IMG/VR virus record: IMGVR_UViG_3300032236_000747
Span: 248,001 to 312,000 of that record
Source: a virus
DNA length: 64,000 nt
Reading direction: 5' to 3' (one strand)
Shown one piece after another: positions 11,816 through 30,288 of this stretch (its first letter is position 1; the number at the start of each line of letters is the position of its first letter). The notes under the pieces are model-generated. The model did not search any database, was not told the origin of the DNA, and saw only the letters and a list, made by a program, of their open reading frames with translations. Both the position numbers and the translations under genes were made by a program.

Positions 11816-12222
11816 GATTCAACGAATTCACCCAACCCCCACAGCAGCCAAGTCAGCCAAAGATGCCCGAATACGACTTCGAAGCTGAACTAGATCTCAG
11901 TGACATTGTCAAGGGCCTACTATGGGGTAGCACCAGCAAGTGGGACTACAGCAACAGCATCGTTGGGGTAGTATCCGGCGTAGAGTATCATGATACCAAG
12001 CGTGGCCCAGATACCTTGGCAGTAGTGGATGTCTATGAAGTATGGGCACCCATAGGCGTTGACGACGAGGGCGAAGGCGGCGATTGGGTAGACATCAAGG
12101 GTGAACTAGACAGTGAAACCATAGATAGTCTAGAAGAACAGGCTGTGGAGCATGAGCAGTGGAAAAACCGCAATACCTTTAGCCATGCTAGGTATATAAC
12201 CCGCAGTGACTTTGAGAACTAA
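11812..12222 (+). CDS. Hypothetical late protein with MRxxEF leader, 136 aa
   Basis: Overlaps the stop of the metallopeptidase-like gene by 4 bases. The leader MRFNEFTQPPQQPSQP is followed by an acidic domain (YDFEAELDLSDIVKGLLWGS, then DDEGEGGDWVDIKGELDSET). No family is recognised. Its 3' end overlaps the end of the convergent gene at 12219 by 4 bases. Confidence 0.65.
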   Translation: MRFNEFTQPPQQPSQPKMPEYDFEAELDLSDIVKGLLWGSTSKWDYSNSIVGVVSGVEYHDTKRGPDTLAVVDVYEVWAPIGVDDEGEGGDWVDIKGELDSETIDSLEEQAVEHEQWKNRNTFSHARYITRSDFEN

Positions 12223-12977
12223 GGACCTGGGCTGAATATAGGCCTAGCAGCCAGGCTATCGGCAGGGGGTTCTAGTATAGTCCACTCAGTGCCCAATACA
12301 GGCGTTAGGTGTATGTGGCTGCGTGGTATCCAATACTTGTCACCCTCGATCTGCATTTGATCAACAATATTACTAAACACTGAATCCAGTAAGATAAGGG
12401 CCTGCGCACCCTCGAGTATCTTTAACCAATCAAAGACATTGTCTGTTTGTAAAGTTATGTTTATGACCTGCCAATCTATGGGTATGGCGCTGAGATCAGC
12501 ATCACACTTGTAGGTGCTGCCTTCTGTGTGTACGACCACATAGTTGGGGTTGGCGACTAGTTTGTTGTAGAGGGCCTGCTCACGGGCAGGGTTACGTGTA
12601 ATACATTCAGCTAGAGTCCACTTCTTTAAAAAGGGCACACCTGCCTTTGAATACTTGAACTCATCAAAGTGCTGTATTTGAAAGAAGGGCTGCTTGCTGA
12701 GCTCGGGTACGATGTTGAGAGCCTGATACAAACAGATAATCTCGTCACATTTAAGTGCTTTTAATCTTTTCATGGGCTCAGCGTAGAAAAACTGTCCCTG
12801 ATTGTCTTCTGGAATAGGGATCCACTGTACCCAGGGTGCTGTTTCTTTGACAGAGCCCCAAAAGGCTTCACACACGGGCCATACAACAGTATGCCCTTGA
12901 TCTACATATGCTTTGGCTATGGGTAGAGTGATAACAATATCACCTAGCCCTCTTGATTGTATAATACCTATTTTCAT
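12219..12977 (-). CDS. Glycosyltransferase family 9-like protein, 252 aa
   Basis: Starting at the ATG at 12977, the N-terminus reads MKIGIIQSRGLGDIVITLPI. This is the GDxxxxxP loop typical of ADP-heptose:LPS heptosyltransferase-like (GT9) Rossmann folds. The C-terminal region (EGAQALILLDSVFSNIVDQM) corresponds to the nucleotide-sugar-binding half, where GT9 enzymes have a D-S-x-x-x-H type motif. The usual His is absent, so activity is uncertain. A longer frame from 13010 overlaps the upstream gene and is less likely. It is in an operon with Dam and the nuclease-like gene. Confidence 0.65.
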   Translation of the reverse strand: MKIGIIQSRGLGDIVITLPIAKAYVDQGHTVVWPVCEAFWGSVKETAPWVQWIPIPEDNQGQFFYAEPMKRLKALKCDEIICLYQALNIVPELSKQPFFQIQHFDEFKYSKAGVPFLKKWTLAECITRNPAREQALYNKLVANPNYVVVHTEGSTYKCDADLSAIPIDWQVINITLQTDNVFDWLKILEGAQALILLDSVFSNIVDQMQIEGDKYWIPRSHIHLTPVLGTEWTILEPPADSLAARPIFSPGP

Positions 12978-12981
12978 ATTT

Positions 12982-13932
12982 TTAGTTATCGAAGTCAAAT
13001 AGCTGCTCAACTAATGTTGGCGGAGGTAAGGCCACGGCCGCTGCGGGTATCGTGGCACTGTGTAAGAGTATTTCTTCTGCTGCCTTGGCTGTGTGTGTGG
13101 CTACGTTGTTTTCATCTACGCCTCGGGCACGCCTACCTGCTGTGTAGGTGATTGGGTATTTCTTTAACAACAGTTGCCCTTGATTACTGGTATAGAAGTT
13201 ATCGCCGGCTTCTCGGTTACAGTAGAACACAATATCGCCTGCTAGGTCTTGTTGTTTACAAAAGTTTATCAGTGTTAGATGATCGGCGTCTGTGAACGTT
13301 TGCCCATAGCTAGTAAAGCTGTCTCTATAGGGTGGGTCAAAGAACCAAAAGGTCTTGCCCTGAGTGTGCGGAACAACATTGCTCCAGTTGCCACAATAGA
13401 TATCTACCTGCTGTAGGAATGCATTCCACTCTATGACATTGTCCTTGTCATAGACCTTGGAGGTTTGATTTAACAGTCCGCTGGGGGTAGCAAAGCGTCC
13501 ATTACTGGTTTTATTGGTTTGCCAAATACCGTTGAAGCCCGTTTTCATCAAGAAGTAGAGGCTAGCACTTTCATCAGTGGCTGACCACTGTGTCCAGTTA
13601 GTGGTGTACTCTGTGCGCAGAGTATAGTAGAATGCCTTGCGATCTACCTTAGACAAGGGCAAGTATTGCGCAGTCAGCTGATCCATACGTGCCATAAAGG
13701 CCAAGTGATCTGTTTTGATTGCTGTGTAGATACCCACAATCTCTGCGTTGATATCATTGAGCACAAACTTTGTTACACTTGGACAGTGGTCTTTGACCCA
13801 GCACATCATTGCGCCACCCCCAAAGAATGGCTCAGCAAATGTATCGTATTGAGTCGTGGGTATTCCGGGATCCGCAATATACTTGGGGATCATCTTGTTC
13901 TTGCCGCCTGCCCATATATACAATGGCTTCAT
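12982..13932 (-). CDS. Dam-type DNA adenine-N6 methylase (D12 class), 316 aa
   Basis: All main motifs are present: WAGGKNK at 7-13 (motif X), AEPFFGGG at 33-40 (SAM-binding motif I) and DPPY at 199-202 (catalytic motif IV). A TGFNGIWQTN segment at 131-140 is typical of the family. The length is a little above E. coli Dam (278 residues) owing to a Pro/Ala-rich tail (ATIPAAAVALPPPT). It probably methylates phage DNA to escape host restriction. It shares a 4-base overlap with the upstream gene. Confidence 0.93.
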   Translation of the reverse strand: MKPLYIWAGGKNKMIPKYIADPGIPTTQYDTFAEPFFGGGAMMCWVKDHCPSVTKFVLNDINAEIVGIYTAIKTDHLAFMARMDQLTAQYLPLSKVDRKAFYYTLRTEYTTNWTQWSATDESASLYFLMKTGFNGIWQTNKTSNGRFATPSGLLNQTSKVYDKDNVIEWNAFLQQVDIYCGNWSNVVPHTQGKTFWFFDPPYRDSFTSYGQTFTDADHLTLINFCKQQDLAGDIVFYCNREAGDNFYTSNQGQLLLKKYPITYTAGRRARGVDENNVATHTAKAAEEILLHSATIPAAAVALPPPTLVEQLFDFDN

Positions 13933-14864: not shown

Positions 14865-15641
14865 TTAGAAATAGTAGCCGTTTGGCTGCTTAGGAAAGTA
14901 GCATTCGTTGCGTTCGATTGGCAAATCTCTACGGCCTTCGCAGTAGAACTCAGCACCCAAACCAATAGCCAATGATAGGGCTACACTTTGGTTGCCAATA
15001 AATGCGCCAACACCTTTGATTAGGTTAGCAACTTCCAACAATGTAGTTGTGGGTTGATACTTACAATCTTTCCAATCAGTCAACTTGACAAAGTCTTCGT
15101 ATTCATTTGGCAAGCCAACAAACAATGCTTCTTGGTCCAAACCGTCTGCCTTCCATTGATCGTAGGCAGGATTACGCTCTCCTGGAACCCAACGACCTGT
15201 GCGGTTAACAATAACACTGATGCCTTCTGGCGCCATTGGTGTAGGCGCAGTGAGCCAAGGCGTTGTTCTTAGTTGTTCTTTAACAACAGGATCATTAATA
15301 CCAAAACAACCTGCGTAGATATCTACATAGTTGCCAGGGTGTCCAACAAACGGAACTCTAAAGCGATCTAGGTTATGGGTAACTTCGTGCTTCTTTGGAT
15401 CCAAGGGTTCGAATGATTCGATATATGTCTGTGCCAGCATAAAGGATTTCATGAACTCGTAGTCTTTGAGATTCATTCTGCCTTGATGGAATGGATTTGG
15501 ATCTGCTCCGTAAAAATGCTTGCCAATCCAATCTATTTGATTCATGTGTAAGTAGAACTTACCGCCGCCTGTGTATTGAGCAATGGGTAGACTGTAGATT
15601 AAATCGCCCAAAGTGCCCGAGTGTTTGTATGAGTTTGCCAC
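14865..15641 (-). CDS. Glycosyltransferase family 9-like protein, 258 aa
   Basis: The GTG start at 15641 follows AAAGGAAGTACTATA. The N-terminus MANSYKHSGTLGDLIYSLPI carries the G-T-LGDLIYSLP loop of GT9-like folds. The C-terminal region LIKGVGAFIGNQSVALSLAI, then GLGAEFYCEGRRDLPIERNE, matches the sugar-nucleotide-binding half (GNQS in place of D-S-x-x-x-H). It is transcribed from its own promoter divergently from the endolysin. It may modify DNA or cell-surface sugars; the substrate is unknown. Confidence 0.65.
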   Translation of the reverse strand: MANSYKHSGTLGDLIYSLPIAQYTGGGKFYLHMNQIDWIGKHFYGADPNPFHQGRMNLKDYEFMKSFMLAQTYIESFEPLDPKKHEVTHNLDRFRVPFVGHPGNYVDIYAGCFGINDPVVKEQLRTTPWLTAPTPMAPEGISVIVNRTGRWVPGERNPAYDQWKADGLDQEALFVGLPNEYEDFVKLTDWKDCKYQPTTTLLEVANLIKGVGAFIGNQSVALSLAIGLGAEFYCEGRRDLPIERNECYFPKQPNGYYF

Positions 15642-15673: not shown

Positions 15674-15713
15674 ATTGTACACGATTGACAGATCCTGGTC
15701 AATAGTGTATAAT
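15674..15713. promoter_or_regulatory. Overlapping divergent promoters
   Basis: Rightward: TTGACA 15685-15690, 17-base spacer, TATAAT 15708-15713 (to the endolysin). Leftward: TTGACC (complement of 15697-15702), 17-base spacer, TACAAT (complement of 15674-15679). The two -35 boxes form the inverted repeat TTGAC...GTCAA (15685-15702), so polymerase binding should be mutually exclusive. Confidence 0.8.
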
Positions 15714-15796
15714 AGCTCATTATCCTGCCGTTTTGTAGCCATATGAAGCGTCAATGATAACTATTATATCAAGCAAACTAGCAAAAGGAGGTCTTT

Positions 15797-16375
15797 ATGA
15801 CGGAATTGATACTAGATAGAGCGGAAAGTAACACACAAAAAGCAGAAGCAGTTAGCAAACTGTTTACAATCGTATTAATGCTTTTGGGAGTATGGTTAAG
15901 CGTAGACATGCTTACATACGCCGTTCATCACAAACTAGAAACTGCAGAGGTTGTTGGAGACAACAGCGTGACAACAGCAGTAAGAGAAAGACAGTTAACC
16001 TGTCTAGCTAAAAATATATACCATGAAGCAGGATCAGAGCCATTTGAAGGTAAGGTCGCTGTCGCACAGGTAACATTAAACAGGGCTAACAACAGTCAGT
16101 TCCCTGGAGATGTATGTAACGTTATCTATCAAAAGAACGTTATCTACAGTAAAGTAATATGCCAGTTCAGTTGGGCCTGTGATAGGGATACCAGCGTCAG
16201 GCCTATCAACAAAGCCATGTACAATGAAAGCGAACTGGTTGCCCGCAAGGTGCTACTAGAAGGATTTAGATTGCCTAGTTTAAATCAAGCATTGTATTAT
16301 CATGCTGACTACATAGACCCGCACTGGCGTAGAGAACGTATTACGTCAATCGGACACCATATCTTTTACAAATGA
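15797..16375 (+). CDS. SleB-type cell wall hydrolase (endolysin), 192 aa
   Basis: The ribosome site AAAAGGAGGTC precedes ATG. Residues 21-41 are a hydrophobic span (LFTIVLMLLGVWLSVDMLTY) acting as a signal-anchor, so this may be a SAR-type endolysin. The hydrolase domain begins near 65. IYHEAG at 74-79 contains the presumed catalytic Glu77, followed by GKVAVAQVTLNR at 85-96 and CQFSWACD at 122-129. These are the signature blocks of the Hydrolase_2/SleB family, which cleaves peptidoglycan glycan strands. The holin-like gene overlaps its stop. Confidence 0.9.
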   Translation: MTELILDRAESNTQKAEAVSKLFTIVLMLLGVWLSVDMLTYAVHHKLETAEVVGDNSVTTAVRERQLTCLAKNIYHEAGSEPFEGKVAVAQVTLNRANNSQFPGDVCNVIYQKNVIYSKVICQFSWACDRDTSVRPINKAMYNESELVARKVLLEGFRLPSLNQALYYHADYIDPHWRRERITSIGHHIFYK

Positions 16376-16713
16376 GAAAGCAGTATATGAATAGACAACT
16401 TATGGAACTAGTAGCTAAATGGCCACGTTGGATTTGGTATTTCTTGCGTGATCATCTAGGCAAGGTTAGTGCTCACACACTAGGATGGATGAGCATTATC
16501 TTATGTCACTTTGCTGCCATTCCTACACTGTTAGCTGTGCTACTTGGGCAAAGTGATAAGCTACCTCCTGTAGATCTTATGGTCTTTATTTGGGCAGCTT
16601 TAACTACAATGTTCTTTAAATCACTCATTGAAAAGAACTTCTTGTATCTTTCTACAATCTGTTTGGGATTTGTGGCCCAAACCATTATCATGGGTCTGAT
16701 CCTGTTCAAATAA
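16372..16713 (+). CDS. Holin-like membrane protein, 113 aa
   Basis: Overlaps the endolysin stop (ATGA). After a basic N-terminus (MRKQYMNRQLMELVAKWPRW) it has hydrophobic spans at about 38-57, 66-82 and 92-112. Three spans and the position next to an endolysin fit a class I holin or a related membrane protein. The sequence itself matches no holin family I know. Confidence 0.6.
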   Translation: MRKQYMNRQLMELVAKWPRWIWYFLRDHLGKVSAHTLGWMSIILCHFAAIPTLLAVLLGQSDKLPPVDLMVFIWAALTTMFFKSLIEKNFLYLSTICLGFVAQTIIMGLILFK

Positions 16714-16716
16714 ATA
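16709..16716 (+). promoter_or_regulatory. T4-like late promoter element AATAAATA
   Basis: Lies at the end of the holin-like gene and 4 bases before the ATG at 16721. Confidence 0.5.
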
Positions 16717-16720
16717 ATGG

Positions 16721-17176
16721 ATGCCCCAGAACAATCCACCACAAGATCTACGTAAACTTCTTGCTAGCCTACAGCAAGATCTAGCAAGAGCAGAAGCTGC
16801 CTACGCTTCTGCACAGCAGATCACTAAACCTATCAAAGAAGTCAATGGTATTACAAACTCTATCATAAGAGAAATCAGTGACCTAATCGAACAACAGGGA
16901 AGACCTGTTGAGATTCGCTACGAGATTAATGAAATAGATGAAGCTGCACACAAACTAGTAGCCAAAATATATGCTTTGGAAGATATATTTGAAGAGTCCG
17001 TCAAGAATCTACGCAGTAACATCGAAGACGTAGAATATGACATAGAAAATGGCGAAGATGAGCCGTGGACAGTGAGAGAATCATCTCTAGCTGAACAGCA
17101 TATGAACAAACTACGCAACAAGATTCTGTACACAGAGCAACTCCTTGCCTACAAGAAACTAAAAAGCAATAAATAA
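16721..17176 (+). CDS. Coiled-coil late protein, 151 aa
   Basis: Long helical sequence with heptad patterns (LRKLLASLQQDLARAEAAYA, then EAAHKLVAKIYALEDIFEES) and an acidic region near 110 (DVEYDIENGEDEP). No domain is recognised. The N-terminus (MPQNNPPQ) lacks the MRxxEF leader. It lies between two late promoter elements, so it is probably virion-associated. Confidence 0.65.
   Translation: MPQNNPPQDLRKLLASLQQDLARAEAAYASAQQITKPIKEVNGITNSIIREISDLIEQQGRPVEIRYEINEIDEAAHKLVAKIYALEDIFEESVKNLRSNIEDVEYDIENGEDEPWTVRESSLAEQHMNKLRNKILYTEQLLAYKKLKSNK
17168..17175 (+). promoter_or_regulatory. T4-like late promoter element AATAAATA
   Basis: Overlaps the end of the coiled-coil gene and precedes the ATG at 17181. 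It is the last promoter-like element I see before the modification gene cluster, so the cluster may be read from here. Confidence 0.55.
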
Positions 17177-17180
17177 AACT

Positions 17181-17546
17181 ATGAGAGCACAAGAGTTTAC
17201 CAAAGAAGCAAGAGATCACGGACCAGGGCACAATAACATGATGCCCACGGAAGATCATTCTAGTCATCGCATGACTAACAATACAATGCCATATGAAGAA
17301 AGCCGTGTTGAAGCATTGAGAAAAAACATTGCTACATTGGAACAGCAAATCCTAGAAAAGACCAGCGCCAAACTTTGCCGCAGTCCTAAGAAGCTAGGCA
17401 ACAGTGATCAAAGCTCTTGTGTAGCACAAGGTCTACGTGCTCACACCAGTAAAGGCAAAGGCCACACAGATGGCAAAGGTCACTACCTAAAAGGTCATAG
17501 AGCTAAAAGTACTAAGTACGGCGGCGACGTTCCTGATTACAGTTAA
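17181..17546 (+). CDS. Late protein with MRxxEF leader and His/Lys/Gly-rich tail, 121 aa
   Basis: The leader MRAQEFTKEARDHGPGHNNM resembles T4 capsid-targeting peptides (MKTYQEFIAEA), with a possible cleavage near EA. The C-terminal half (CVAQGLRAHTSKGKGHTDGK, then HYLKGHRAKSTKYGGD) is basic and His-rich, as expected for a DNA-associated internal head protein. The function is inferred from this pattern only. Confidence 0.65.
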   Translation: MRAQEFTKEARDHGPGHNNMMPTEDHSSHRMTNNTMPYEESRVEALRKNIATLEQQILEKTSAKLCRSPKKLGNSDQSSCVAQGLRAHTSKGKGHTDGKGHYLKGHRAKSTKYGGDVPDYS

Positions 17547-17577
17547 TATCCTGTAGAAGGATCATGAGTAGTATTAA

Positions 17578-18039
17578 ATGATAACCTTAGAGGAATTCCA
17601 CTCTTTTATTGAAAACGATATAGTATATCTCCAGAACTTACTATACTACATTGATGCTCAAGGGCAAGAGCATAAAATCAACAACCTGGGTCATCTTCAT
17701 TCCTTGTACGGGAATACCATAAAACTAGAAGGTGCCGAGAAATACAATAAAGCTCTCTTTGACTATTGTCAATCTTTCAAACACTCGGGTCCAGTAACTT
17801 GCCACATCTTTAGATCCTTCGCAGGCTCACATAGTTTTCCAACCCATGTAGATCCAGATGATGTACACCTTAGGTTGCTATATGGACAGAAAACTATTAT
17901 ACTAGAAGATACAGAACATATTTTGAATCCCAACGACTGCTTATACATACCTGCCAATACTCCCCATCGTGCAATAAACAACGAAGAGTCTTTGATGTTA
18001 AGCATAGGACTTGAAAAGTTTCTTATTGATAAACTATGA
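17578..18039 (+). CDS. Cupin/JmjC-like Fe(II) oxygenase candidate, 153 aa
   Basis: The HxD...H metal triad of cupin-fold 2-oxoglutarate oxygenases is visible as H90-V-D92 and H130 in IPANTPHRA. Further family marks are DVHLRLLYGQKTIIL (95-109) and NPNDCLYIP (117-125). At 153 residues it is a minimal double-stranded beta-helix domain. It begins the modification cluster and overlaps the first radical SAM gene by ATGA, so the two are probably coupled. Hydroxylation of a peptide or protein side chain is the likely reaction; the substrate is unknown. Confidence 0.65.
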   Translation: MITLEEFHSFIENDIVYLQNLLYYIDAQGQEHKINNLGHLHSLYGNTIKLEGAEKYNKALFDYCQSFKHSGPVTCHIFRSFAGSHSFPTHVDPDDVHLRLLYGQKTIILEDTEHILNPNDCLYIPANTPHRAINNEESLMLSIGLEKFLIDKL

Positions 18040-19094
18040 ATTGGCTTTTCTATTTAAAAACTACAGAGACCTGTAATCTCAACTGTAAACATTGTTTCAC
18101 CAATGGAACCAGCGGAGCAAAGATCTATTGGAACAAAGAAAAAGTCAGTAAGTGGTTAAAGGATTTTAGAGAAGAAGTTGGTCCTGGGCATTCAGCTCAC
18201 TGTGAGTTTCATGGGGGAGAGCCATTCCTTGTTGATGTAGAAGAAATGAAACAAGTATACGATGAATGTAAAGACCTTTGGAATAATATGTCATGGGGTG
18301 TAACAACTAATCTCGTATTCAAACTATCTCCTTCTATCATAGAGTTTATTAAAGGGCCCTTAGACAATAGATTAGCTACGAGTTGGGATCCTGATATTAG
18401 ATTTGCTAATCCTAAACAGTATGACCTTTGGAGGAACAATGTTAGGACATTGATAAACGAAGGAGTTACTCTTAAATTGTTTGTCAGTGTTACAAAAGGC
18501 ACAGTTAAAATGAACCCCATTGATCTCTTAGAGTGGATTAGAGACCTGGGAGTGAAAGAAGTAAGTTTTGAGAGATTAACGCACAACGGTAGCGCAAACA
18601 AAAACCCTGATATATTTCCCAGCAACGTAGAACAAGATGCTTGGTTCCTTAGAATGCATCAACAGAGCGAACAGGCAAACGCTAGAACTTGGTTTAATAA
18701 CGAGTTTCTAGAAAATGTTTATACAAAGTTTGAATCCGGATTTAACAAAGCAGGAACTTTCTGCAGGGACTGTGAGGAAAAACTCTTTACGTTAAACGCA
18801 GATGGTTCTATTGCCGGATGCCCAAACAGTGCTCCGGAACAGTATTTCGGACATATAGATACTAGAATACACGATCTACTCAAAGACCCTGCTAGAATAA
18901 ACAACATAGCCTGTGAAAGATCTAGAGATCCTAGGTGTTATTCCTGTGATGTTTTTGAGTTTTGTGGAGGAGACTGCCATCAGTTATCCTGGGAAGACGA
19001 TCAGTGTGGTGCACCTAGAAGCTTGATGCAGTTGTTAGCAGGTATAAATACTCTAAGAAGTCAAAAGATCTTTAAAATAGAGGAAATTAAATGA
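18036..19094 (+). CDS. Radical SAM enzyme with SPASM domain (1 of 5), 352 aa
   Basis: The CxxxCxxC cluster motif is C13-NLN-C17-KH-C20. EFHGGEP at about residue 57 is the SAM-binding GGE motif. A C-terminal Cys-rich SPASM region (about 243-324: C243, C246, then GCPNS, CYSCDVFEFCGGDC and C324) should hold auxiliary [4Fe-4S] clusters. SPASM enzymes typically modify ribosomally made peptides (thioether, C-C links, epimerisation). It lies directly upstream of the CHxS-tail protein with a 4-base overlap, making that protein the prime substrate candidate. Confidence 0.9.
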   Translation: MNWLFYLKTTETCNLNCKHCFTNGTSGAKIYWNKEKVSKWLKDFREEVGPGHSAHCEFHGGEPFLVDVEEMKQVYDECKDLWNNMSWGVTTNLVFKLSPSIIEFIKGPLDNRLATSWDPDIRFANPKQYDLWRNNVRTLINEGVTLKLFVSVTKGTVKMNPIDLLEWIRDLGVKEVSFERLTHNGSANKNPDIFPSNVEQDAWFLRMHQQSEQANARTWFNNEFLENVYTKFESGFNKAGTFCRDCEEKLFTLNADGSIAGCPNSAPEQYFGHIDTRIHDLLKDPARINNIACERSRDPRCYSCDVFEFCGGDCHQLSWEDDQCGAPRSLMQLLAGINTLRSQKIFKIEEIK

Positions 19095-19750
19095 CAACGT
19101 TAAATAATCCGGTCACCTCCCAAAATATTGTTGATAGATTCTACGATTACGTAAACTATACAGCTAGTCAAGGAGTCACTTGGGGTAGTGATGTTATTCC
19201 AGCGGGCGATACTAGCCCAGTGAGCGGAGTTGCTGCATCAGTACCTATTATAGCCAGCACGGATTTTGCAGGGACAGTGGCCGCGGTTACTGATATTGCT
19301 ATTAACGGAGCAAGTATTGGATCATCCGGTGGTACTATTACAGCCTCTGACATTTGGTCGGTGCTGGTAAATGAAACAAGCAGAGAAACACATATTAGAT
19401 ATGTTCAAGCAATTTGCGGAGTAACGGGCACTGGTGGAAATGCTGGTACAAGATTGAGAAACACAACCACTAACAGTGATCCTAATCGTGTTCAAGACGT
19501 ATATAATCTTACAAGGGTAGCTAATATGAGGGCAGGTTTTGCAAGTGGCATAACCAATCCAGCTGCTTCAACCTACTCATTAACCGCTGGAAGTACTATT
19601 AGTTCAACTAACCTTGAATCTTTTTTCAGTGCTTGTCGAGACGCTTATAATAACGCTGCTAGAGCCACTGGATCAGCATATGTATATCGTACTAATGTAT
19701 GCCACGCTAGTTGCCACTCTAGTTGTCATAGTTCAAGAGGAAGAAGATGA
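19091..19750 (+). CDS. CHxS-tail protein, candidate substrate of the radical SAM enzymes, 219 aa
   Basis: Residues 1-200 look like a folded Thr/Ala/Gly/Asn-rich domain (MTTLNNPVTSQNIVDRFYDY at the start), like many phage virion proteins. The last 16 residues are CHASCHSSCHSSRGRR: three C-H-x-S units (C204, C208, C212) and a basic end. The only other Cys are C109 and C182. The HxS pattern recalls the His-Xaa-Ser substrates of radical SAM maturases, here with Cys added. Coupled ATGA overlaps join it to the SPASM enzyme and to the next gene. A metal-binding tail without modification is the main alternative. Confidence 0.75.
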   Translation: MTTLNNPVTSQNIVDRFYDYVNYTASQGVTWGSDVIPAGDTSPVSGVAASVPIIASTDFAGTVAAVTDIAINGASIGSSGGTITASDIWSVLVNETSRETHIRYVQAICGVTGTGGNAGTRLRNTTTNSDPNRVQDVYNLTRVANMRAGFASGITNPAASTYSLTAGSTISSTNLESFFSACRDAYNNAARATGSAYVYRTNVCHASCHSSCHSSRGRR

Positions 19751-20436
19751 ACATCATCGAAACAACAGCACCTATTTCTATAGATAATTTAAAGAAGTAT
19801 TTTGAAGATAAAGAAACTGTCTTTTTAATCGATTATGATAACTCTAATCTTAAAGAAGAAAAACTATTAACTTATCTTAGCAATCTAGAAATACCCTGCG
19901 ACCTAAACATAACAGACAATGATTATCTCTTACCGTTGATAACCTGTTATTTAAAATCTCCACATATGGTAGAAATCCCGTTTCTTGAAAGAATAACAAT
20001 TATTCTTCTCTTGCAACATAAAGGCATTTTAGAAAAACAAGATCTTACTATGTTAGAGTCTTTTAAAGAACTATTAGATCTATGGTGTGAAAGATTAGAT
20101 TCTCTAACATTATATAACTTATATTGTGTTAATGAAGACAATGATTATTTTAAAAACTGGGTATTAGAAACCGGTATAAAGGATGACACAACTGATATGT
20201 CAGGTTGTAACTTTGTTAATCTTTTAAAATATGAAGATTTCTATCGATTCTATCAAAAGAGCAGTTCGACTCCTAAATATTTTCCCTACTACTTTGACGA
20301 GTATGTATTCAAAGGGAAAAACTTATACAGTTATTGGGCCAACAATAACAACCCTATGTTTCTTTTAACATTTGGAATAGCTTCCGGTGTATTTGAACAA
20401 TTCAAGGAAAATTTAAATGCTACACCTATTCAATAA
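19747..20436 (+). CDS. Unknown protein of the modification cluster, 229 aa
   Basis: Overlaps the CHxS-tail gene by ATGA. It is acidic and largely helical (ISIDNLKKYFEDKETVFLID, then TLYNLYCVNEDNDYFKNWVL) with few conserved-looking motifs. I recognise no family. The position suggests a partner of the substrate protein, such as a peptide-recognition or carrier protein, but nothing in the sequence proves it. No known leader-binding (RRE-type) fold could be confirmed by eye. Confidence 0.6.
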   Translation: MNIIETTAPISIDNLKKYFEDKETVFLIDYDNSNLKEEKLLTYLSNLEIPCDLNITDNDYLLPLITCYLKSPHMVEIPFLERITIILLLQHKGILEKQDLTMLESFKELLDLWCERLDSLTLYNLYCVNEDNDYFKNWVLETGIKDDTTDMSGCNFVNLLKYEDFYRFYQKSSSTPKYFPYYFDEYVFKGKNLYSYWANNNNPMFLLTFGIASGVFEQFKENLNATPIQ

Positions 20437-21520
20437 AGTCTATCTTGCTAGTGATTATACACTATGGAATATTCATGCTGACAAAATATTAATAATATCA
20501 GATCATTATGCCACTGAAGATACAAAAGGATATCAAGGATCTACCTATGTAGGTAAAAGTTTATCAGATGCTTTTGGAGAGAAAACACTGCATGATGTTT
20601 TATCAGAGTTTGCCGCAGGCACTGATAAAGTTATTATCTATGCCGATAACATAAGTTTTGCTGAAATCGCTGCTTCGTGGTTTAAGTCGATTACGCACAT
20701 GGATCAAACAGCCTACGATACATTTGTTGACTGTTATATCTATAAAAGGTCTGTTACTGGGCAAGATGTTGGTCAACTATCTGTTTTAATGAAACAACAG
20801 TTAGAGTCAGCACCGGCATATGATTTTTCTAATATAGCAGTTGATATGCCCTATGAGTTTTTATTAGCATCTGCTTTGGTCAATAGAGACTTTTCTAAGA
20901 AATCTCAGTTTTTAAAAACACAAGCTAAGTTTGTTAAGAGATCATATGAACACCTTATTCTAGAAGCACGCAGGCATTTGGACAACTATATATTAGATGC
21001 TAATTTACAAACAGCTCTAGGGGGCTCTGGTAAAACAATACAAAACTACAAAGAACTACCAAGCCTAGCTGCTTATAAAGAACCTTATTTTAAAGAAGCT
21101 GTTCCTGGGCCAGTAGTTCATAGCTATATTCCCGGACAAGGATCTAAGATCGATATTAGCCAAGGGTCTGATAGCGATATTGATGACCTATGCAGGGTTA
21201 CAAATATCATAAACGTTTCTATAGCAGGTATGACTATTTCAACAGGGCCCAATGGACCGGTTGTTTCTTCTAGTCCATATACAAACAACCTAAGAGCCGA
21301 TGATGGTAATGGTTGGAAATATCTAGCAGCAGCTAGAAGAGGCGAGCTAACCTCTGAAGAGTCTGATGCATTGTTAACTGAGTTCTTAGAACCTAGAGTG
21401 GCATTTGAGTTAGTCCCATTGGATCTATCACAAACTATTGTCATGGTACTACTCCCTTATTTTAAATCTCTTGCTAATAGCGGAAACACTACTGAGCTCA
21501 CTAAGTTTACACTAAAATAA
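20417..21520 (+). CDS. Unknown cluster protein, paralogue A, 367 aa
   Basis: The N-terminus MLHLFNKVYLASDY, with TDKVIIYADNISFAEIAASWF near 69-89, matches the 26608-27714 protein (MMIHLFNQVYLSYDN and NKVVIYASRDSFLEILVLWF) at equivalent positions. A first domain of about 120 residues is therefore shared, and the remainder diverges. No catalytic motif is seen. Each paralogue sits directly upstream of a radical SAM gene, suggesting a dedicated partner or substrate-presenting role. AAGGAAA precedes the ATG inside the previous gene. Confidence 0.65.
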   Translation: MLHLFNKVYLASDYTLWNIHADKILIISDHYATEDTKGYQGSTYVGKSLSDAFGEKTLHDVLSEFAAGTDKVIIYADNISFAEIAASWFKSITHMDQTAYDTFVDCYIYKRSVTGQDVGQLSVLMKQQLESAPAYDFSNIAVDMPYEFLLASALVNRDFSKKSQFLKTQAKFVKRSYEHLILEARRHLDNYILDANLQTALGGSGKTIQNYKELPSLAAYKEPYFKEAVPGPVVHSYIPGQGSKIDISQGSDSDIDDLCRVTNIINVSIAGMTISTGPNGPVVSSSPYTNNLRADDGNGWKYLAAARRGELTSEESDALLTEFLEPRVAFELVPLDLSQTIVMVLLPYFKSLANSGNTTELTKFTLK

Positions 21521-21521
21521 T

Positions 21522-22550
21522 ATGTCCTTGTATGATGTAATAGACAGGAAGGTCATAGACTATGCTGAGATTGTTGTCTGTTTATTTGATCATTGTAATC
21601 TACGCTGTGCTTTTTGTCCACAACATCACGATGATTTATTAGGTGCCTCTAGGGATGAAATATTAGCCAAGGTTCCGGGCATTGTTAACTGGATTAATAA
21701 TAATACTAGATCAAAGTATTTTAAAATTCATATAATGGGCGGCGAAGTATTTGAAGATATCTTCATAGAACAAGGCTTTATTGAAATCTATCAGGATTTT
21801 ATAGATCAAATAAAAAATAGTGTTCCAAAAGAAAAACACGTTGAAATAAACTTTATAACAAACTTAGTTTTTCAAAAACATCAAACAGTTTTAGATTTTC
21901 TTAATATCAATAACCTAAAAGTTTCAACATCTTACGATCCTCGTGGTCGATTTACTGCTCAACAGTTTGAAACATTTAAAAATAACATAGAGATATTTAA
22001 AGACTATATTAGTATGTTTTCTGTAGTAACTACTAGACAAAACATTGAAGCAGTTATAAAAGGCGATAGTTATTTTGATTATCTATATCAAAACTTTGTT
22101 TGTGATTGGGATTCATTTATACCAGCAATAGCAGAAACAGCCGAAGCAATGATGCCTAGTGAACAAGAGTTATTAAACTTTTATAAACATCTCGTTGACC
22201 ATTATCCGGACTGTATTAATATAGAGTATTTTACTGGTAATGAAAAAGAAAATCACATGAGCTGCACAAGGGGAAACAGTTATACTATTCTAAGAGATGG
22301 TTCTATGCCCGGTGGATGCAGTGGTGCGGTGTTTCTTAAAGATGCTGAAACAAAAAACTTAGAATCAACTATCATATTACATAAGTTTTTTGATACCTAT
22401 GATTGTTTCTCGTGTGAGTATTTTAAGAAATGTCCTTTTACCTGTTTTATAAAAAATGACTACAAAAAAATTAAACGAGATCTCGGAAGCTGTGTTTTTA
22501 AAGAAACCTTTCGATACGTCGATTCAAAACATAAAAGTATCATTCATTAA
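21522..22550 (+). CDS. Radical SAM enzyme with SPASM-like C-terminus (2 of 5), 342 aa
   Basis: The cluster motif is C25-NLR-C29-AF-C32. HIMGGEV near 71 is the GGE motif. The C-terminal Cys set (CTRGNSYTILRDGSMPGGCS, then CFSCEYFKKCPFTC and a last Cys) fits a SPASM/twitch auxiliary-cluster domain. It follows paralogue A by one base. The next gene (B12-type enzyme) overlaps it by 95 bases, which is unusually long. Confidence 0.88.
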   Translation: MSLYDVIDRKVIDYAEIVVCLFDHCNLRCAFCPQHHDDLLGASRDEILAKVPGIVNWINNNTRSKYFKIHIMGGEVFEDIFIEQGFIEIYQDFIDQIKNSVPKEKHVEINFITNLVFQKHQTVLDFLNINNLKVSTSYDPRGRFTAQQFETFKNNIEIFKDYISMFSVVTTRQNIEAVIKGDSYFDYLYQNFVCDWDSFIPAIAETAEAMMPSEQELLNFYKHLVDHYPDCINIEYFTGNEKENHMSCTRGNSYTILRDGSMPGGCSGAVFLKDAETKNLESTIILHKFFDTYDCFSCEYFKKCPFTCFIKNDYKKIKRDLGSCVFKETFRYVDSKHKSIIH

Positions 22551-24255
22551 TCCACCTCACGCCGATTGGTGTTTGGCAAACAATGCTGCTTACTTAATGT
22601 TTCAATCGCATTACAGCAGACACGGCAAAAATAATAAAAAGGTAGAGTGGATACCGGCTCCTTATCGATTTGATCAGTATGAAAATGTTCAACAAATATT
22701 AAACGAAGTTGGGAAAGCTGATGTGTATCTATTTTCTAGTTACATATGGAACTATGATGTATGTGATAGTCTCGCCAGACTAATCAAAGATACCTATCCT
22801 ACAAGCATCTGCGTATTAGGTGGCCCGCAAATAGGAACTAACGAACCAAAGTTCTTAACATCTCGTTCTATGTATGATTATATACTGCGACCAACCAAAC
22901 CCGGTGAAGTATTTGTACAAGAACTTATTGATTCGTATTTCGATAACTTAGGATATCCTGATGTAGAAGATATTTCCTGGGAACTACGTAGCGATAAAAA
23001 ATGCGATCAGTTTATGCCAGATTATAGTGTGTACGAAGAACATATAGAATATCTAACCAATGCTAGAGAACATGCTCGTGAAAATGATCTAGAACCATTT
23101 TGTATTATTGAAACAACTCGAGGATGTCCTTATGCGTGTACCTATTGCGAATGGGGCGGAGGAATAGACAGTAAAATCTATAAGAAGCCTATTGATGTAG
23201 TAAAGCGTGATTTATTAGCATTAAAGAAAGCAGGCTATCGAGATGTTTACCTGACAGATGCTAACTTCGGAGCATTTAAAGATAGGGACTTAGAAATATT
23301 TAAGTTTGCGTGGGACAATGAAATAAATCTAACTGACATCAGTACTATGAAAAGCAAGGATTTGAAAAGAAGAACAGATCTAGTCGATGCATGGTTTAGC
23401 GTTGTAGGATCCGGGCCAGAAAAACACAGCCCTGTTATAACAGGAAGAGAAGGCGGACAAGCTCTTGTTGCCGGACTAGGTGAAATGTCAGCTTTATCAA
23501 ACGATGTTTCTTATATTAGTATTGTACCAACAGTATCTATTCAAAGTATCAGCGATGAAGCTATGAAAGTAGCTAAACGTGCTGACCTATCCTTTCAAGA
23601 TAAAATAAAACTCAGCGAGCATATAAACAATCAGTGCCACAAAGAAGGATATCCTGTTCCTGCTATTGAGTTAATAATGGGAATGCCAGGCAGTACTATT
23701 GATGATTTCTATGCTGAATGGGAAATAATGTGGAACTTCAAAGCATGGACTAGTTATCGACACGATTATATGTTCTTGCCTGACTCCGAGTTAACTAATC
23801 CAGAATATTTAAAAAAGTATGATATTACTCTAGTAGAAGTTTACAGTGATCTAGTAGACGAGTTTGGTATTGATAATCAAAATAGTCTTTATAAAAATAA
23901 ACGTAGTTATTTTAAAACTATATCGTCTTGCTTCTCTTATACATTCGACGAAATGTGTGAAATGTGGTTCATGAATCTAGCTGAGAACAGACTATTAGAA
24001 AAAATATATCCAATGTTTGAAAATGATATTTTACCGAGCGAGTTTGGAAAAATGTGTTATCGAATATTATCTCAAACAGATGAGTTTGCTGTTATCCATA
24101 AACAAATACAAGACCTACTAGATCCAAATACATCTCCAAAAAATATCAAAAGATTGAATGGTAAACTAAGAAACTTTGCTATTGATGACCTCACTGATAA
24201 GTACAGAACTATCATTGTTTCTCAAATATACAAGGAGATGTTATGCATCAACTAA
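22456..24255 (+). CDS. B12-binding-domain radical SAM enzyme (3 of 5), 599 aa
   Basis: Residues about 25-160 look like a Rossmann B12-binding domain (IKVSFINPPHADW, YLFSSYIWNYD, ICVLGGPQIG). The radical SAM motif is C224-PYA-C228-TY-C231 preceded by IIETTRG, typical of class B methylase-like enzymes. The usual DxHxxG cobalamin-ligand motif is not visible. Such enzymes methylate unactivated carbons or rearrange side chains. The start is uncertain: a GTG near 22491 would shorten the 95-base overlap. Confidence 0.85.
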   Translation: MTTKKLNEISEAVFLKKPFDTSIQNIKVSFINPPHADWCLANNAAYLMFQSHYSRHGKNNKKVEWIPAPYRFDQYENVQQILNEVGKADVYLFSSYIWNYDVCDSLARLIKDTYPTSICVLGGPQIGTNEPKFLTSRSMYDYILRPTKPGEVFVQELIDSYFDNLGYPDVEDISWELRSDKKCDQFMPDYSVYEEHIEYLTNAREHARENDLEPFCIIETTRGCPYACTYCEWGGGIDSKIYKKPIDVVKRDLLALKKAGYRDVYLTDANFGAFKDRDLEIFKFAWDNEINLTDISTMKSKDLKRRTDLVDAWFSVVGSGPEKHSPVITGREGGQALVAGLGEMSALSNDVSYISIVPTVSIQSISDEAMKVAKRADLSFQDKIKLSEHINNQCHKEGYPVPAIELIMGMPGSTIDDFYAEWEIMWNFKAWTSYRHDYMFLPDSELTNPEYLKKYDITLVEVYSDLVDEFGIDNQNSLYKNKRSYFKTISSCFSYTFDEMCEMWFMNLAENRLLEKIYPMFENDILPSEFGKMCYRILSQTDEFAVIHKQIQDLLDPNTSPKNIKRLNGKLRNFAIDDLTDKYRTIIVSQIYKEMLCIN

Positions 24256-24749
24256 AAGAAAACATTTACAAATACGGATATCATCAACTATTTGAACCTA
24301 GTGCCCTTGATTTAATAAAAGCAGACGAGTTTCGTTTACTCAATGTAGAAGAGCGCAGTAGAGATAATATGATAAAAGATGTACCAACAGAGTTATCAAA
24401 TAGATTAACTACAGTTGCTCATTATTTTAAAACCAAATATATAGATCCTGTATGGGAGAACTCTAGATACAATAAATTTACTATCTGGGAAGGTGTTGAT
24501 CGTGACAACCAAGGATGGCATACTGATTTCTTTGAAGGTTATGATTTATTCTTTCTCTACTACCTTGATGACACATTTGAAGAATCTGGAGGGTATATTG
24601 AGTTTAAATGGGACAGCGGCGAAAAACGTTATCAACCAAAAGCAGGAGATCTGTTTTTAGTTAACAACCTACGTGGCTTCTGGCATCGTGCTGGCAGTTC
24701 TACTATATCTCGTCGTGTAGCAAGTTTTGATTTTAACGCAGGTATCTAA
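24243..24749 (+). CDS. 2-oxoglutarate/Fe(II) oxygenase, prolyl-hydroxylase type, 168 aa
   Basis: The metal triad is H93-T-D95 and H148, with the 2-oxoglutarate-binding Arg in SRRVASFDF (R157 or R158). LFFLYYLDDTFEESGGYIEF and PKAGDLFLVNN give the typical strand order of P4H-like domains. The gene overlaps the B12-type enzyme by 13 bases. A peptide or protein side chain in this cluster, or the collagen-like fibre at 52279, are possible substrates. Confidence 0.85.
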   Translation: MHQLKENIYKYGYHQLFEPSALDLIKADEFRLLNVEERSRDNMIKDVPTELSNRLTTVAHYFKTKYIDPVWENSRYNKFTIWEGVDRDNQGWHTDFFEGYDLFFLYYLDDTFEESGGYIEFKWDSGEKRYQPKAGDLFLVNNLRGFWHRAGSSTISRRVASFDFNAGI

Positions 24750-24750
24750 A

Positions 24751-25056
24751 ATGCAACAAGTTATTAATGATCTATTAGAAAAGAAGAAAATCCTAGGAGA
24801 TGAAAGAGACCTATGCGCTGAAGTTTATAATGTGTGGATTACTAGGATGTACGAGTGCCAGGACGATCCTGTTAAGTATGAAATGTATATAAACATGATA
24901 CAGGTTATGGAACCATATGGCCAAATGGTTAAAGAGGAAATAAGAGAAATAAATCGTCAGCTTTGTGAAATAGAAGGTGTAGATTCTATAGACGAAACTC
25001 CTTATCTTAGAGAATGCAACAACAAGTATGGAAACGCAAAACCAAACGATATCTGA
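24751..25056 (+). CDS. Small helical cluster protein, 101 aa
   Basis: ATG at 24751, one base after the oxygenase stop; an upstream in-frame start within the oxygenase was rejected. The N-terminal helices (MQQVINDLLEKKKILGDERD, then MVKEEIREINRQLCEIEGVD) look coiled coil. The C-terminus (ECNNKYGNAKPNDI) is polar with one Cys. It could be a scaffold or a small precursor. No family is recognised. Confidence 0.55.
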   Translation: MQQVINDLLEKKKILGDERDLCAEVYNVWITRMYECQDDPVKYEMYINMIQVMEPYGQMVKEEIREINRQLCEIEGVDSIDETPYLRECNNKYGNAKPNDI

Positions 25057-25552
25057 TATTGGCAACGATTTTCTTATTAATGGATTTGCTACCGGTCTAG
25101 TTCCTCTTGATTTATTAACTCCGTTTAATAACACATATTTTCCTGATTGTAATATAGACTGTGATTATGTGTTTCCGGAAGAAGTTATAAATTTATTAAC
25201 ACCTGTGTGCGATTGGTTAAAAATAAACTATCTAGAAACATTGTTTGCTGACTATAGAGTACATTACATAGGAGCATGGAGTGGAGTCGATGAAGGCTCA
25301 GCAAGATGGCACAACGACTGGATTGATGGCGACCCATTTAATACAAACATTCTTGTATATCTAGATCCTCCATTAGAAAACTATATAGCAGTTAGAAATA
25401 TACTTGATCCGGACAGCGAAACTAAGATATATCCAGAAGTTGGGCAGTTTGTTTGGATCAATCAACAAAAACACATACAACACAAAGCACAACATACTGC
25501 TGGCCCTAGAAGATTATTGTGCTTTGAATTCTTCGTACCTAACCTAACCTAA
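25028..25552 (+). CDS. 2-oxoglutarate/Fe(II) oxygenase-like protein, 174 aa
   Basis: The HxD is H95-N-D97 in SARWHNDWIDGDPF. The distal His is H152 or H156 (QHKAQH), followed by GPRR with R161 or R162 as the likely 2-oxoglutarate ligand and CFEF as the last strand. NILVYLDPP and VGQFVWIN correspond to core strands. It overlaps the preceding small gene by 29 bases. It is the third oxygenase-type protein of the cluster. Confidence 0.75.
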   Translation: METQNQTISDIGNDFLINGFATGLVPLDLLTPFNNTYFPDCNIDCDYVFPEEVINLLTPVCDWLKINYLETLFADYRVHYIGAWSGVDEGSARWHNDWIDGDPFNTNILVYLDPPLENYIAVRNILDPDSETKIYPEVGQFVWINQQKHIQHKAQHTAGPRRLLCFEFFVPNLT

Positions 25553-25556
25553 CAAA

Positions 25557-26648
25557 ATGGATCTTATCATTAAACCTACAGAAGTATGTAACTTCAAATG
25601 TACATTTTGTTCATCTACAAAAATCAGTGAAGAACATAGTTCAACACTAGACTTAGATTACGTGTTTAAGTTTCTAAAAAGATTTCCGGAAACTAATACA
25701 ATAATAGTCAATGGTGGAGATCCATTGATGATGCCTGTTAACTATTATTGGGAGATTATTAACTGGCTAGATCAACACAACTACGATCACACTACTCTTA
25801 GTCTTACAACTAATCTTTGGCCATTTTATAAAAATCCAGATAAATGGATTGAGCTATTCAAACATCCAAGGGTTGGCGTTAGTACATCGTTCCAATATGG
25901 TAACGGCCGTCTTAAAGGCAACTATGAAGTCTTTACAGAAGATGACTTTTGGGCAGCATCGAATATGATGCTAGATAAAATAGGTTATCGACCTACCTTC
26001 ATTGCTGTTATCACAGAAGAAAACGAAGACAGCATTATTAAAACAGTAGAGCTTGCTAAGAAGATGGATGTTGTTTGTAAAGTAAATTACGGAATGGCAT
26101 CCGGAGACCAGTCAACTCCATATATGTTATCAAAGATATATAAGGCCTATATAGATATATGGAAGGCGGGACTTTATCCCTGGGAACATAATACGCAGCA
26201 GATGATGACTCGATTAAAAGGAACAGCGACAATCTGCCCACAGGCCCGAAACTGTGATTCGCATATAAGAACACTTCAACCAGAAGGAGATTACTATTCC
26301 TGCGGTGCATTCGGCGACGACAAGGAAAAACCTATTAACTTTGAAGAAGAAATGAGTGGTAAGTTTTTTACACCGTTGTCTGATGACTTTGACATTGCTA
26401 CAATGAAACAATCCTGTTATACTTGTGCTATGTTTGAAATCTGTAATGGTTGCAGAAAAACCGTTAAAGATCAAAAGAGACACGGAATGGTAGAAGAACA
26501 TTGTAAGATGATGAAGTCTCTCGCTCCTGATATAATAACAGCCAATGGAGTTGTTAGGGAAGTTACCCCTTATGTTAAAGAAAGCAATCAAAGAATAATA
26601 AGGATAGTTGATGATACATTTGTTCAACCAAGTTTACCTATCTTATGA
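25557..26648 (+). CDS. Radical SAM enzyme with SPASM domain (4 of 5), 363 aa
   Basis: The cluster motif is C11-NFK-C15-TF-C18. VNGGDPL near 51 replaces the usual GGEP, a common variant. The C-terminal Cys set (ATICPQARNCD, then EGDYYSCGAFGD, CYTCAMFEICNGCRKT and EEHC) fits a full SPASM domain with two auxiliary clusters. The order HxD-oxygenase then SPASM enzyme repeats the arrangement at the start of the cluster. Confidence 0.9.
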   Translation: MDLIIKPTEVCNFKCTFCSSTKISEEHSSTLDLDYVFKFLKRFPETNTIIVNGGDPLMMPVNYYWEIINWLDQHNYDHTTLSLTTNLWPFYKNPDKWIELFKHPRVGVSTSFQYGNGRLKGNYEVFTEDDFWAASNMMLDKIGYRPTFIAVITEENEDSIIKTVELAKKMDVVCKVNYGMASGDQSTPYMLSKIYKAYIDIWKAGLYPWEHNTQQMMTRLKGTATICPQARNCDSHIRTLQPEGDYYSCGAFGDDKEKPINFEEEMSGKFFTPLSDDFDIATMKQSCYTCAMFEICNGCRKTVKDQKRHGMVEEHCKMMKSLAPDIITANGVVREVTPYVKESNQRIIRIVDDTFVQPSLPIL

Positions 26649-27714
26649 TAATATCATAGATGAAAACATTGATAGAGTAGTAATATCAGAAGAGTTTGGT
26701 AAACATATGTTGCAGTATGCCGCTAGGCCTTCCCACGGGGCATTGTTGTATGCTGGCATGGATATTAATGACCTAGCAACAAATGGTATTAGTGATTTCT
26801 TTAACAACCTAGCAACGCATAAAAATAAAGTTGTTATCTATGCTAGTAGAGATTCGTTCTTAGAAATATTAGTGTTATGGTTTACTTCTCTATTAAAACA
26901 TGCCGACAAAGATACAGTACAAACATTGTGTAAGGCTTTGATCTTTAGGATAGTTGTGTTTTCAAATGGAAGATTTATCACACGCAGCGATAAAAACAAA
27001 ACTGAATATTCGCCGCAATACTACGAGTTCCCACAGGCCGACTTTGATTCATACTATAAGCTAGCACTTGAGTCTAACTTAGATCTAGCACCATTTCTAA
27101 ATAACATAGGTGTTGAGTATATGCTAGCAACATATCTTTACAGCGGTCATTATAAAGAAGAACTTAAATCTTTATTAAAACCCTTGATAAGAAAAGATAT
27201 GATAAAATATCTCTACGAGCTCAAAGAGATATTTCTTGTACATTTAATGACTCCTGCCTTTACAAATAAGATGTCATTAACTAAAGATTATGATTTTAAT
27301 ACATTTACTGATATTATAAATGATGATTCTAGATTTGCTAAAACATTCATGTCTACTCAAATATGGGAAACTCCTTTTATGTCAGCATATGGAAACCATG
27401 ATATCTTTTTAGAAAATATAACTCCAGAAGATATTCAAGTGTTTAAAGACTTTACTCATATTGCTGGAAACACATGGATAGAAGAAAGTGTTTATATATT
27501 TGTTAAATCAGATATTAATAAACTAGACTTTCTAGCTTGTTTTTTAGATTTTACAGATGATCTACTCGATAAGATTATAGAGGCTGAATCAACATTTGAG
27601 CACTCAGCTGGATCTTTCTTTTCTATAGACGTGACTACTGTTAATCATTATCTTGTACAAGGTCTTTTAAAAAATAGAAACAATAAAGAATATCTAAGAT
27701 TGTATTCAATATGA
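26608..27714 (+). CDS. Unknown cluster protein, paralogue B, 368 aa
   Basis: Paralogue of the 20417-21520 protein, with the same length (368 versus 367) and N-terminal pattern HLFNxVYLxxD ... KVxIYAxxxSFxEIxxxWF. It overlaps the SPASM gene upstream by 41 bases and the radical SAM gene downstream by ATGA. The conserved length and position suggest a radical SAM partner. No motif pointing to an enzyme is visible. Confidence 0.65.
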   Translation: MMIHLFNQVYLSYDNIIDENIDRVVISEEFGKHMLQYAARPSHGALLYAGMDINDLATNGISDFFNNLATHKNKVVIYASRDSFLEILVLWFTSLLKHADKDTVQTLCKALIFRIVVFSNGRFITRSDKNKTEYSPQYYEFPQADFDSYYKLALESNLDLAPFLNNIGVEYMLATYLYSGHYKEELKSLLKPLIRKDMIKYLYELKEIFLVHLMTPAFTNKMSLTKDYDFNTFTDIINDDSRFAKTFMSTQIWETPFMSAYGNHDIFLENITPEDIQVFKDFTHIAGNTWIEESVYIFVKSDINKLDFLACFLDFTDDLLDKIIEAESTFEHSAGSFFSIDVTTVNHYLVQGLLKNRNNKEYLRLYSI

Positions 27715-29955: not shown

Positions 29956-29967
29956 GTTATTATTTAC

Positions 29968-29975
29968 AATAAATA
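29968..29975 (+). promoter_or_regulatory. T4-like late promoter element AATAAATA
   Basis: Upstream of the secreted protein gene at 29994; a good ribosome site (AGGGAG) follows. Confidence 0.55.
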
Positions 29976-29993
29976 CAATCTAGGGAGAAACAT

Positions 29994-30287: not shown

Positions 30288-30288
30288 T

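Follow-up and report, generated by a model that had tools for sequence, protein, structure and literature searches.

A conserved Cys-His-x-Ser tail encoded with radical SAM enzymes in a jumbo T4-like phage: a candidate modified protein of the tail-fibre region

The locus and its phage

We analysed a window of 64,000 nucleotides (nt) from the 354,680-base virus record IMGVR_UViG_3300032236_000747 (positions 248,001 to 312,000) and consider here a 219-residue protein with a Cys- and His-rich C-terminal tail, together with the operon of radical S-adenosylmethionine (SAM) and other enzymes in which its gene lies. The phage has a capsid protein of the T4 gp23 type (E 1.3e-80). It also encodes a late sigma factor of the gp55 type (PHROG 234, E 6.6e-27; matched by 0 of 14 control genomes). 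Because both are present, the source is, by its gene content, a jumbo T4-like phage. In such phages T4-type late promoters are to be expected. Open reading frames (ORFs) were called mechanically, and their starts are those of the longest ORF. The operon begins with a cupin/JmjC-like gene and continues with a radical SAM/SPASM gene, the gene of the 219-residue protein, p229, p367 and further enzymes up to 29629. The structural and fibre block of the window covers 34-59 kb. The features on which the analysis depends are the following.

17168-17175, plus strand: late-type octamer AATAAATA, 6 nt before ORF 17181
17578-18039, plus strand: cupin/JmjC-like protein, first gene of the operon (Pfam JmjC_2 4e-10, Cupin_2 2.5e-9)
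18036-19094, plus strand: radical SAM/SPASM enzyme of 352 amino acids (aa), presumed maturase of the tail (SPASM above cut-off; PHROG 1802, 7e-70)
19043-19050, plus strand: TATAAATA, the sole exact T4-type late octamer in 64 kb, 40 nt before the ATG of the 219-residue protein
19091-19750, plus strand: 219-residue protein, with a folded domain at the N terminus and the tail at the C terminus (ORF list, alignments, structure model)
19700-19747, plus strand: conserved 16-residue tail CHASCHSSCHSSRGRR (alignment of enzyme-selected tails)
19747-20436, plus strand: p229, conserved partner of 229 aa (56 of 61 loci; PHROG 20767)
20417-21520, plus strand: p367, conserved partner of 367 aa (family found at 52 of the 61 loci; a paralogue lies at 26608-27714)

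The four ORFs on which an earlier note on this DNA had been built (18036-19094, 19091-19750, 19747-20436 and 20417-21520) were confirmed in the sequence, as was the octamer at 17168-17175. The enzyme at 18036 scores 32.2 bits with the SPASM model TIGR04085 (cut-off 27), and the cysteines of its radical SAM and SPASM parts are conserved at 98-100% across 61 aligned sequences. The cupin family is present in 58 of 61 loci. The structure model of p229 has a mean predicted local distance difference test (pLDDT) of 93.5 and gave no Foldseek match at E 0.001; its fold matches are weak and TIM-barrel-like, the best at Z 4.2 (residues 1-60), with the radical SAM protein ChlB at Z 3.1 over residues 1-117.

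A tail conserved to the stop codon

The 219-residue protein ends in VCHASCHSSCHSSRGRR, and the family consensus of this end is C-H-x-S-C-H-x-x-C-H-x-[S/N]-R-[G/S/A]-R-R-stop. A scan of viral contigs with the enzyme alone found 56 relatives (59-69% identity), which with the window make 57 loci. A tail ORF lies downstream of the enzyme in 55 of these, within 1.5 kb in 54 and 2.2 kb on in the remaining one (L010); the two contigs without it stop 263 and 0 nt past the enzyme match. In the 54 tails that were aligned, the Cys and His residues, Ser(-13), Arg(-4), Arg(-2) and Arg(-1) are invariant, and every tail terminates precisely at the stop codon. A scan of viral contigs with the tail pattern gave at least 119 stretches, where the invariance of Cys, His and Arg is by construction, so that the conservation given here is that of the enzyme-selected set. 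Around the tail ORFs selected by pattern, a radical SAM relative was found within the fetched stretch in 118 of 123 loci, among the matches listed. Relatedness among loci inflates all these counts, and one collapse, of tail genes to 39 groups, was made.

In 84,980 species genomes the tail motif was detected in 12 stretches (L182-L193) from bacterial or archaeal bins, four of them Bdellovibrio-like. Several of these sit in contigs with phage genes and look like phage contigs that were binned with their host. With at least 119 viral stretches against these 12, the motif is essentially viral. Among cultured phages, tblastn of the enzyme against 50,697 phage records returned seven records from six phages, all of them isolates that bear the operon, and the tail ORF was identified in each (SURPRISE13, FLC6, FLC8, Atu_ph07, Phosso and DT01). 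The same kind of search against phages with the 219-residue protein or a class-2 protein (see below) gave nothing useful. A short tail query was also negative, but as the tail is present in six isolates this query is insensitive. A DNA search of phages and a viral scan with the 219-residue protein were unproductive.

The tail proteins fall into two main N-terminal classes (110 and 44 of 161 clustered sequences), the remainder being singles or pairs. Alignment A1, which represents class 1, holds 74 of 90 non-redundant proteins. In class 2, two tail proteins of ~127 aa usually occur in tandem. No relatedness was detected by hhalign between the N-terminal parts of class 1 and class 2 (probability 11%); for the C-terminal segment the value was 12.8%, an N-terminal control giving 29.7%. 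It is thus possible, from these comparisons, that one tail is carried on unrelated N-terminal domains.

A late-type promoter before the tail gene

The earlier note had regarded the octamer at 17168-17175 as the only promoter-like signal upstream of the cluster. This could not be upheld, as the better octamer TATAAATA lies at 19043-19050 and the upstream copy has the spacing of ORF 17181, to which it probably belongs. The motif NATAAATA stands exactly 6 nt before the ATG in ORFs 10376, 17181 and 51981, a distance that would give nearly leaderless late mRNAs. As driver of the cluster the 17168 octamer was rejected, both for this spacing and because the raw count of the motif equals chance: with at most one mismatch, TATAAATA was found 126 times in the window against 126.7 expected, so that a bare match means nothing. 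A motif NATAAATA upstream of the cupin gene was likewise rejected as a general feature (4 of 58 loci within 150 nt, 0 of 58 at 10-60 nt). The heptamer ATAAATA is tied to gene starts, being present within 40 nt upstream of 8 of 55, the best result among 21 permuted heptamers.

The octamer at 19043-19050 lies within the 3' end of the radical SAM gene and is the sole plus-strand NATAAATA between 17182 and 29700. A tally over the relatives, taking in plus-strand members that start at or after position 70, found NATAAATA 10-60 nt before the start in 17 of 56 tail genes and 32 of 151 structural genes, as against 9 of 564 enzyme or accessory genes. The 56 tail genes include three cultured phages and the window; some tails, for example those of Phosso, L044 and L057, were missed in mechanical ORF selection. 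Tail genes differ from accessory genes (Fisher p 2.6e-13; 2e-9 with tail genes collapsed to the 39 groups) and do not differ from structural genes (p 0.2). Relative to the upstream enzyme gene the octamers are found in different reading frames, or they straddle its stop codon. An Ile-Asn codon context is common to eight, and in five of these it is Gly-Ile-Asn. Because the frames differ, conservation of the enzyme protein alone is insufficient to explain them. In relatives ATAAATA accumulates a second time ~150-250 nt before the tail ORF; these copies are suspected to be enzyme coding sequence, and the tally was restricted to the near octamer site, whose frame varies. From this pattern we infer that the gene of the 219-residue protein would be transcribed late, from a promoter of its own.

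Structural neighbourhood, composition and processing

In the relatives the operon is usually placed next to tail-fibre genes. A fibre-family gene lies directly upstream of the cupin in 43 of the 58 loci with a cupin (40 by a stricter rule, 32 with a gap of at most 30 nt), the family having been joined by single linkage, with collagen-like repeats included and membership loose. Its representatives match PHROG families of tail fibre, baseplate wedge and virion structural proteins. The order in L026 is a baseplate wedge (PHROG 438, 3.5e-119), a giant PHROG 358 protein, a virion structural protein, a tail-fibre protein and then the operon, and in L035 the genes that come after the operon encode an L-shaped-fibre assembly protein and a structural protein. 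Of the 29 class-2 loci that could be tested, 28 have a fibre-like gene directly upstream, with gaps of -1 to 12 nt (two loci without an upstream gene are outside the tally), and 5 of 6 tested upstream genes have PHROG tail-fibre matches. Virion structural or tail proteins are immediately upstream of the operon in the phiKZ-like isolates SURPRISE13 (Burkholderia) and DT01 (Pseudomonas), and giant virion proteins lie a few genes from it in Atu_ph07 and Phosso. The tail protein of Atu_ph07 shares its block with a baseplate wedge and a 13-kb virion gene. The one published virion proteome in which this region is named, that of Atu_ph07, gives a structural gene block 'CDS 170-215' (PMC6102473); by numbering that we checked, coding sequence (CDS) 170 is the tail protein and CDS 171 its enzyme. 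All three structural blocks given there span exactly 46 genes, so that the boundary is possibly a fixed-size frame, and we take the block as a hint only.

With 22.0% Thr plus Gly in its first 200 residues, the 219-residue protein takes seventh place among the 65 ORFs that reach 90 aa. Every other member of the top eleven is in the fibre and structural block, and the Thr/Gly-rich character described in the earlier note is thus borne out. The likeness to virion proteins that had been drawn from it holds for composition; in structure no solved virion protein was matched. The AlphaFold2 model of the protein (pLDDT 82.8, predicted template modelling score 0.80) had clear matches among viral models (BFVD) to one unnamed protein, one protein of an uncultured phage and the Atu_ph07 tail protein, and also to three proteins from Myoviridae sp. 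ctijX18. The latter (A0A8S5USJ7, A0A8S5USV2 and A0A8S5USJ8) are 504-660 aa long and have weak fold similarity to the 219-residue protein.

Genes for processing or export were also sought. No peptidase or transporter family was found in the 10 + 10 window cluster proteins or in 26 other cluster families of the relatives, a scan that covered proteins from 90 to under 1000 aa at loci other than L044 and L057, in families reaching beyond the four annotated isolates. No double glycine (GG) site precedes the tail in any of 164 tail proteins, and one of the 164 has a strongly hydrophobic stretch.

Interpretation

A late-type promoter like those before structural genes, adjacency to tail-fibre genes in several unrelated phage groups and the absence of any sign of secretion or processing genes lead us to favour a late protein of the tail or fibre region of the virion, whose C-terminal tail would be modified and retained; we give this reading a probability of roughly 0.63. 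The 219-residue protein would be expressed late from its own promoter, and the radical SAM/SPASM enzyme encoded upstream would modify its Cys-His-x-Ser repeats, with help from p229 and p367 and from further radical SAM, B12-radical SAM and 2-oxoglutarate enzymes, whose set varies. The modification would most likely be a cross-link of the three cysteines, perhaps with changes to His or Ser, and would yield a rigid or metal-binding tip. Neither cut nor exported, the protein would assemble beside the tail fibre and leave with the particle at lysis. We infer its location in the particle, the chemistry and the role at the cell surface. Display on the virion, as proposed in the earlier note, is favoured here on better evidence than the note offered, namely the promoter, the fibre neighbourhood and the negative search for export genes; its examples, a membrane-piercing tip or a host-binding spike, are conceivable forms. 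Neither the uniqueness of the 17168 octamer nor a likeness in fold to a known virion protein found support.

Several findings weigh against this reading. The fold of the 219-residue protein has no PDB match at E 0.001 by Foldseek, and 0 of 65 reached Z 2 with VIA. Membership of the fibre family is loose, as stated, and the 2823-aa protein upstream in L154 has only a weak PHROG match, to a family without known function. In the window itself the operon does not adjoin fibre genes, the next structural genes being found from 34366 on, 4.7 kb beyond the end of the cluster; placement of the tail protein gene in a structural operon holds in relatives, from several unrelated phage groups, and not directly in the window. 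An upstream octamer is absent from 39 of the 56 tail genes. Finally, L048, L051 and L053 have a perfect TTGACA-17-TATAAT before the cupin, 105-116 nt after the fibre gene. The earlier view that the cluster contains no internal early promoter stands for the window only in that sigma-70-like sites over 15700-30500 are no more frequent than chance (61 against 57.2 expected). The promoters of these three relatives suggest that enzyme expression is early or continuous in some phages. Timing may therefore be split, with the enzymes made early and the substrate late.

The tight coupling to fibre genes and the late-type promoter would also suit an assembly factor or chaperone for the adjacent tail fibre that is not part of the virion, its modified tail aiding trimerisation or attachment before release, and one of the 26 other cluster families does match Phage_tail_APC, a tail assembly chaperone. 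However, the composition of the protein is like that of fibre and structural proteins, and a costly modification on a helper that is then released would be odd; we consider this unlikely. A function of the modified protein inside the infected cell, as a metal-binding, redox or anti-defence factor, is in our view quite unlikely: the Cys/His-rich tail could bind metal and iron-sulphur (Fe-S) assembly genes adjoin the cluster, but promoter and neighbourhood are of structural type, and PADLOC gave weak matches to the enzymes only (viperin-like, 27-35 bits; PDC-M51A, 42.5 bits) and none to the tail protein.

A radical SAM/SPASM enzyme among many tailoring enzymes also recalls clusters for ribosomally synthesised and post-translationally modified peptides (RiPPs), and the top NCBIfam score of the enzyme is for the ranthipeptide maturase PapB (55.6 bits, cut-off 340). 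The tail might then be a core peptide that is cut off and leaves the cell, by lysis or by export, to serve as a bacteriocin or signal. Against this, the peptidase, transporter and double-glycine searches described above were all negative, the tail ends at the stop codon, and a conserved domain of ~200 residues stands ahead of it, so that we judge a released peptide very improbable.

If the favoured reading of a modified and retained virion protein is correct, phages apply RiPP-type chemistry to their own particles. Radical SAM genes of jumbo and marine phages, so far listed as metabolic, DNA-repair or unusual genes, would acquire a specific, near-invariant substrate and become part of the structural programme, and why large phages hold many of them would become testable in cultured phages such as Atu_ph07 and FLC6. 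Chemically hardened protein tips could then also be built on a new natural scaffold. The wider proposal is that in several unrelated lineages of tailed phages the virion contains a Cys-His-x-Ser tip cross-linked by radical SAM chemistry, which serves as a surface device associated with the fibre and is varied by swapped tailoring enzymes, and that this is the first virion protein known to have RiPP-type chemistry; to this we would give even odds.

Relation to known systems

Radical SAM RiPP (RaS-RiPP) systems share with this operon a radical SAM/SPASM enzyme and a linked ribosomal substrate with a conserved core, but their leader removal and export have no counterpart here in a peptidase or transporter family or a GG site. 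The ranthipeptide/SPASM type (PapB, NF047865) likewise has its enzyme beside a small substrate with a Cys-rich C-terminal stretch. It differs in that the enzyme studied here falls far under the PapB cut-off, the substrate has a folded N-terminal domain of ~200 residues, no peptidase or exporter was found, and the genes belong to phage tail operons that have a late-type promoter. The tail also resembles His-Xaa-Ser (Hxs) and CXXX-repeat systems, having His-x-Ser at a four-residue Cys spacing and an enzyme weakly similar to HxsB and TIGR04115. However, the scores are far under the cut-offs (HxsB 29.2 of 370; HxsC at most 26.1 of 267.9; TIGR04115 22.9 of 350), and the partner proteins differ. The 219-residue substrate itself matched no NCBIfam model at E 0.1. 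The maturase of quinohemoprotein amine dehydrogenase (TIGR03906) is a SPASM enzyme that modifies a protein kept in a larger assembly, but the enzyme here reaches 23.9 bits of a cut-off of 453 and the substrate is unrelated.

The jumbo phages 332-Vera (PMC12390700), FLC6 (PMC8066314) and pPa_SNUABM_DT01 (PMC8541153) are reported to have multiple radical SAM genes within or close to their structural region, and FLC6 and DT01 carry the same operon as the window. The authors of the 332-Vera report call its eight radical SAM genes within the structural cluster highly unusual (PMC12390700). In the portions of these three reports that are accessible, the genes are listed, called unusual or tied to DNA repair or host metabolism, and no tailed substrate is named. 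Marine T4-like phages have IscU/ATC Fe-S assembly genes beside many radical SAM genes (PMC5332604), a pairing shared with the window; the available part of that source treats them as Fe-S metabolism genes and gives no substrate. The virion proteome of phiRP31 comprises 32 proteins (PMC5468394). In the open-licence literature searched, where radical SAM genes among phage structural genes are noted, no modified virion protein was found described.

Other genes of the window

Downstream of p367 the operon continues with further enzymes, and Fe-S genes follow it.

21522-22550, plus strand: second radical SAM protein (weak Pfam Radical_SAM, 0.0016; clusters with the radical SAM family)
22456-24255, plus strand: B12-binding radical SAM protein (KedN5-like, 6e-26, far under cut-off); the true start is probably further 3'
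24243-24749, plus strand: 2-oxoglutarate (2OG)-Fe(II) oxygenase-like protein (Pfam scan)
25028-25552, plus strand: relative of the 24243 oxygenase family (same blastp cluster; no Pfam match of its own)
25557-26648, plus strand: third radical SAM/SPASM protein (domain scans)
26608-27714, plus strand: p367 paralogue (blastp clustering)
27711-28643, plus strand: fourth radical SAM protein (domain scans)
28606-29010, plus strand: p134, conserved in the cluster (32 loci; PHROG 20737)
29003-29629, plus strand: 2OG-Fe(II) oxygenase (Pfam 2OG-FeII_Oxy_5, 1.3e-9)
29626-29955, minus strand, and 31549-31881, plus strand: two Fe-S_biosyn proteins beside the following gene (Pfam)
30420-30803, plus strand: NifU_N/IscU-like Fe-S scaffold (Pfam)

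The IscU/NifU-like and Fe-S_biosyn proteins of the phage may feed the Fe-S enzymes of the cluster. Five ORFs of the window (10376, 11812, 17181, 51981 and 60317) have MRxxEF or MKTFKDY-like starts, which we take to resemble T4-type capsid-targeting leaders. Two minus-strand ORFs, 12219-13010 and 14865-15641, encode proteins with similar starts (GDIVITLPIAK and GDLIYSLPIAQ), presumably related glycosyltransferase-type folds, and the 12219 family was found again near the operon in L010 and L024. Inside the fibre block lies the minus-strand ORF 49475-50068, whose product starts with MEQKTILVMYSGGLDSLG and which we assume to resemble a QueC/PP-loop enzyme.

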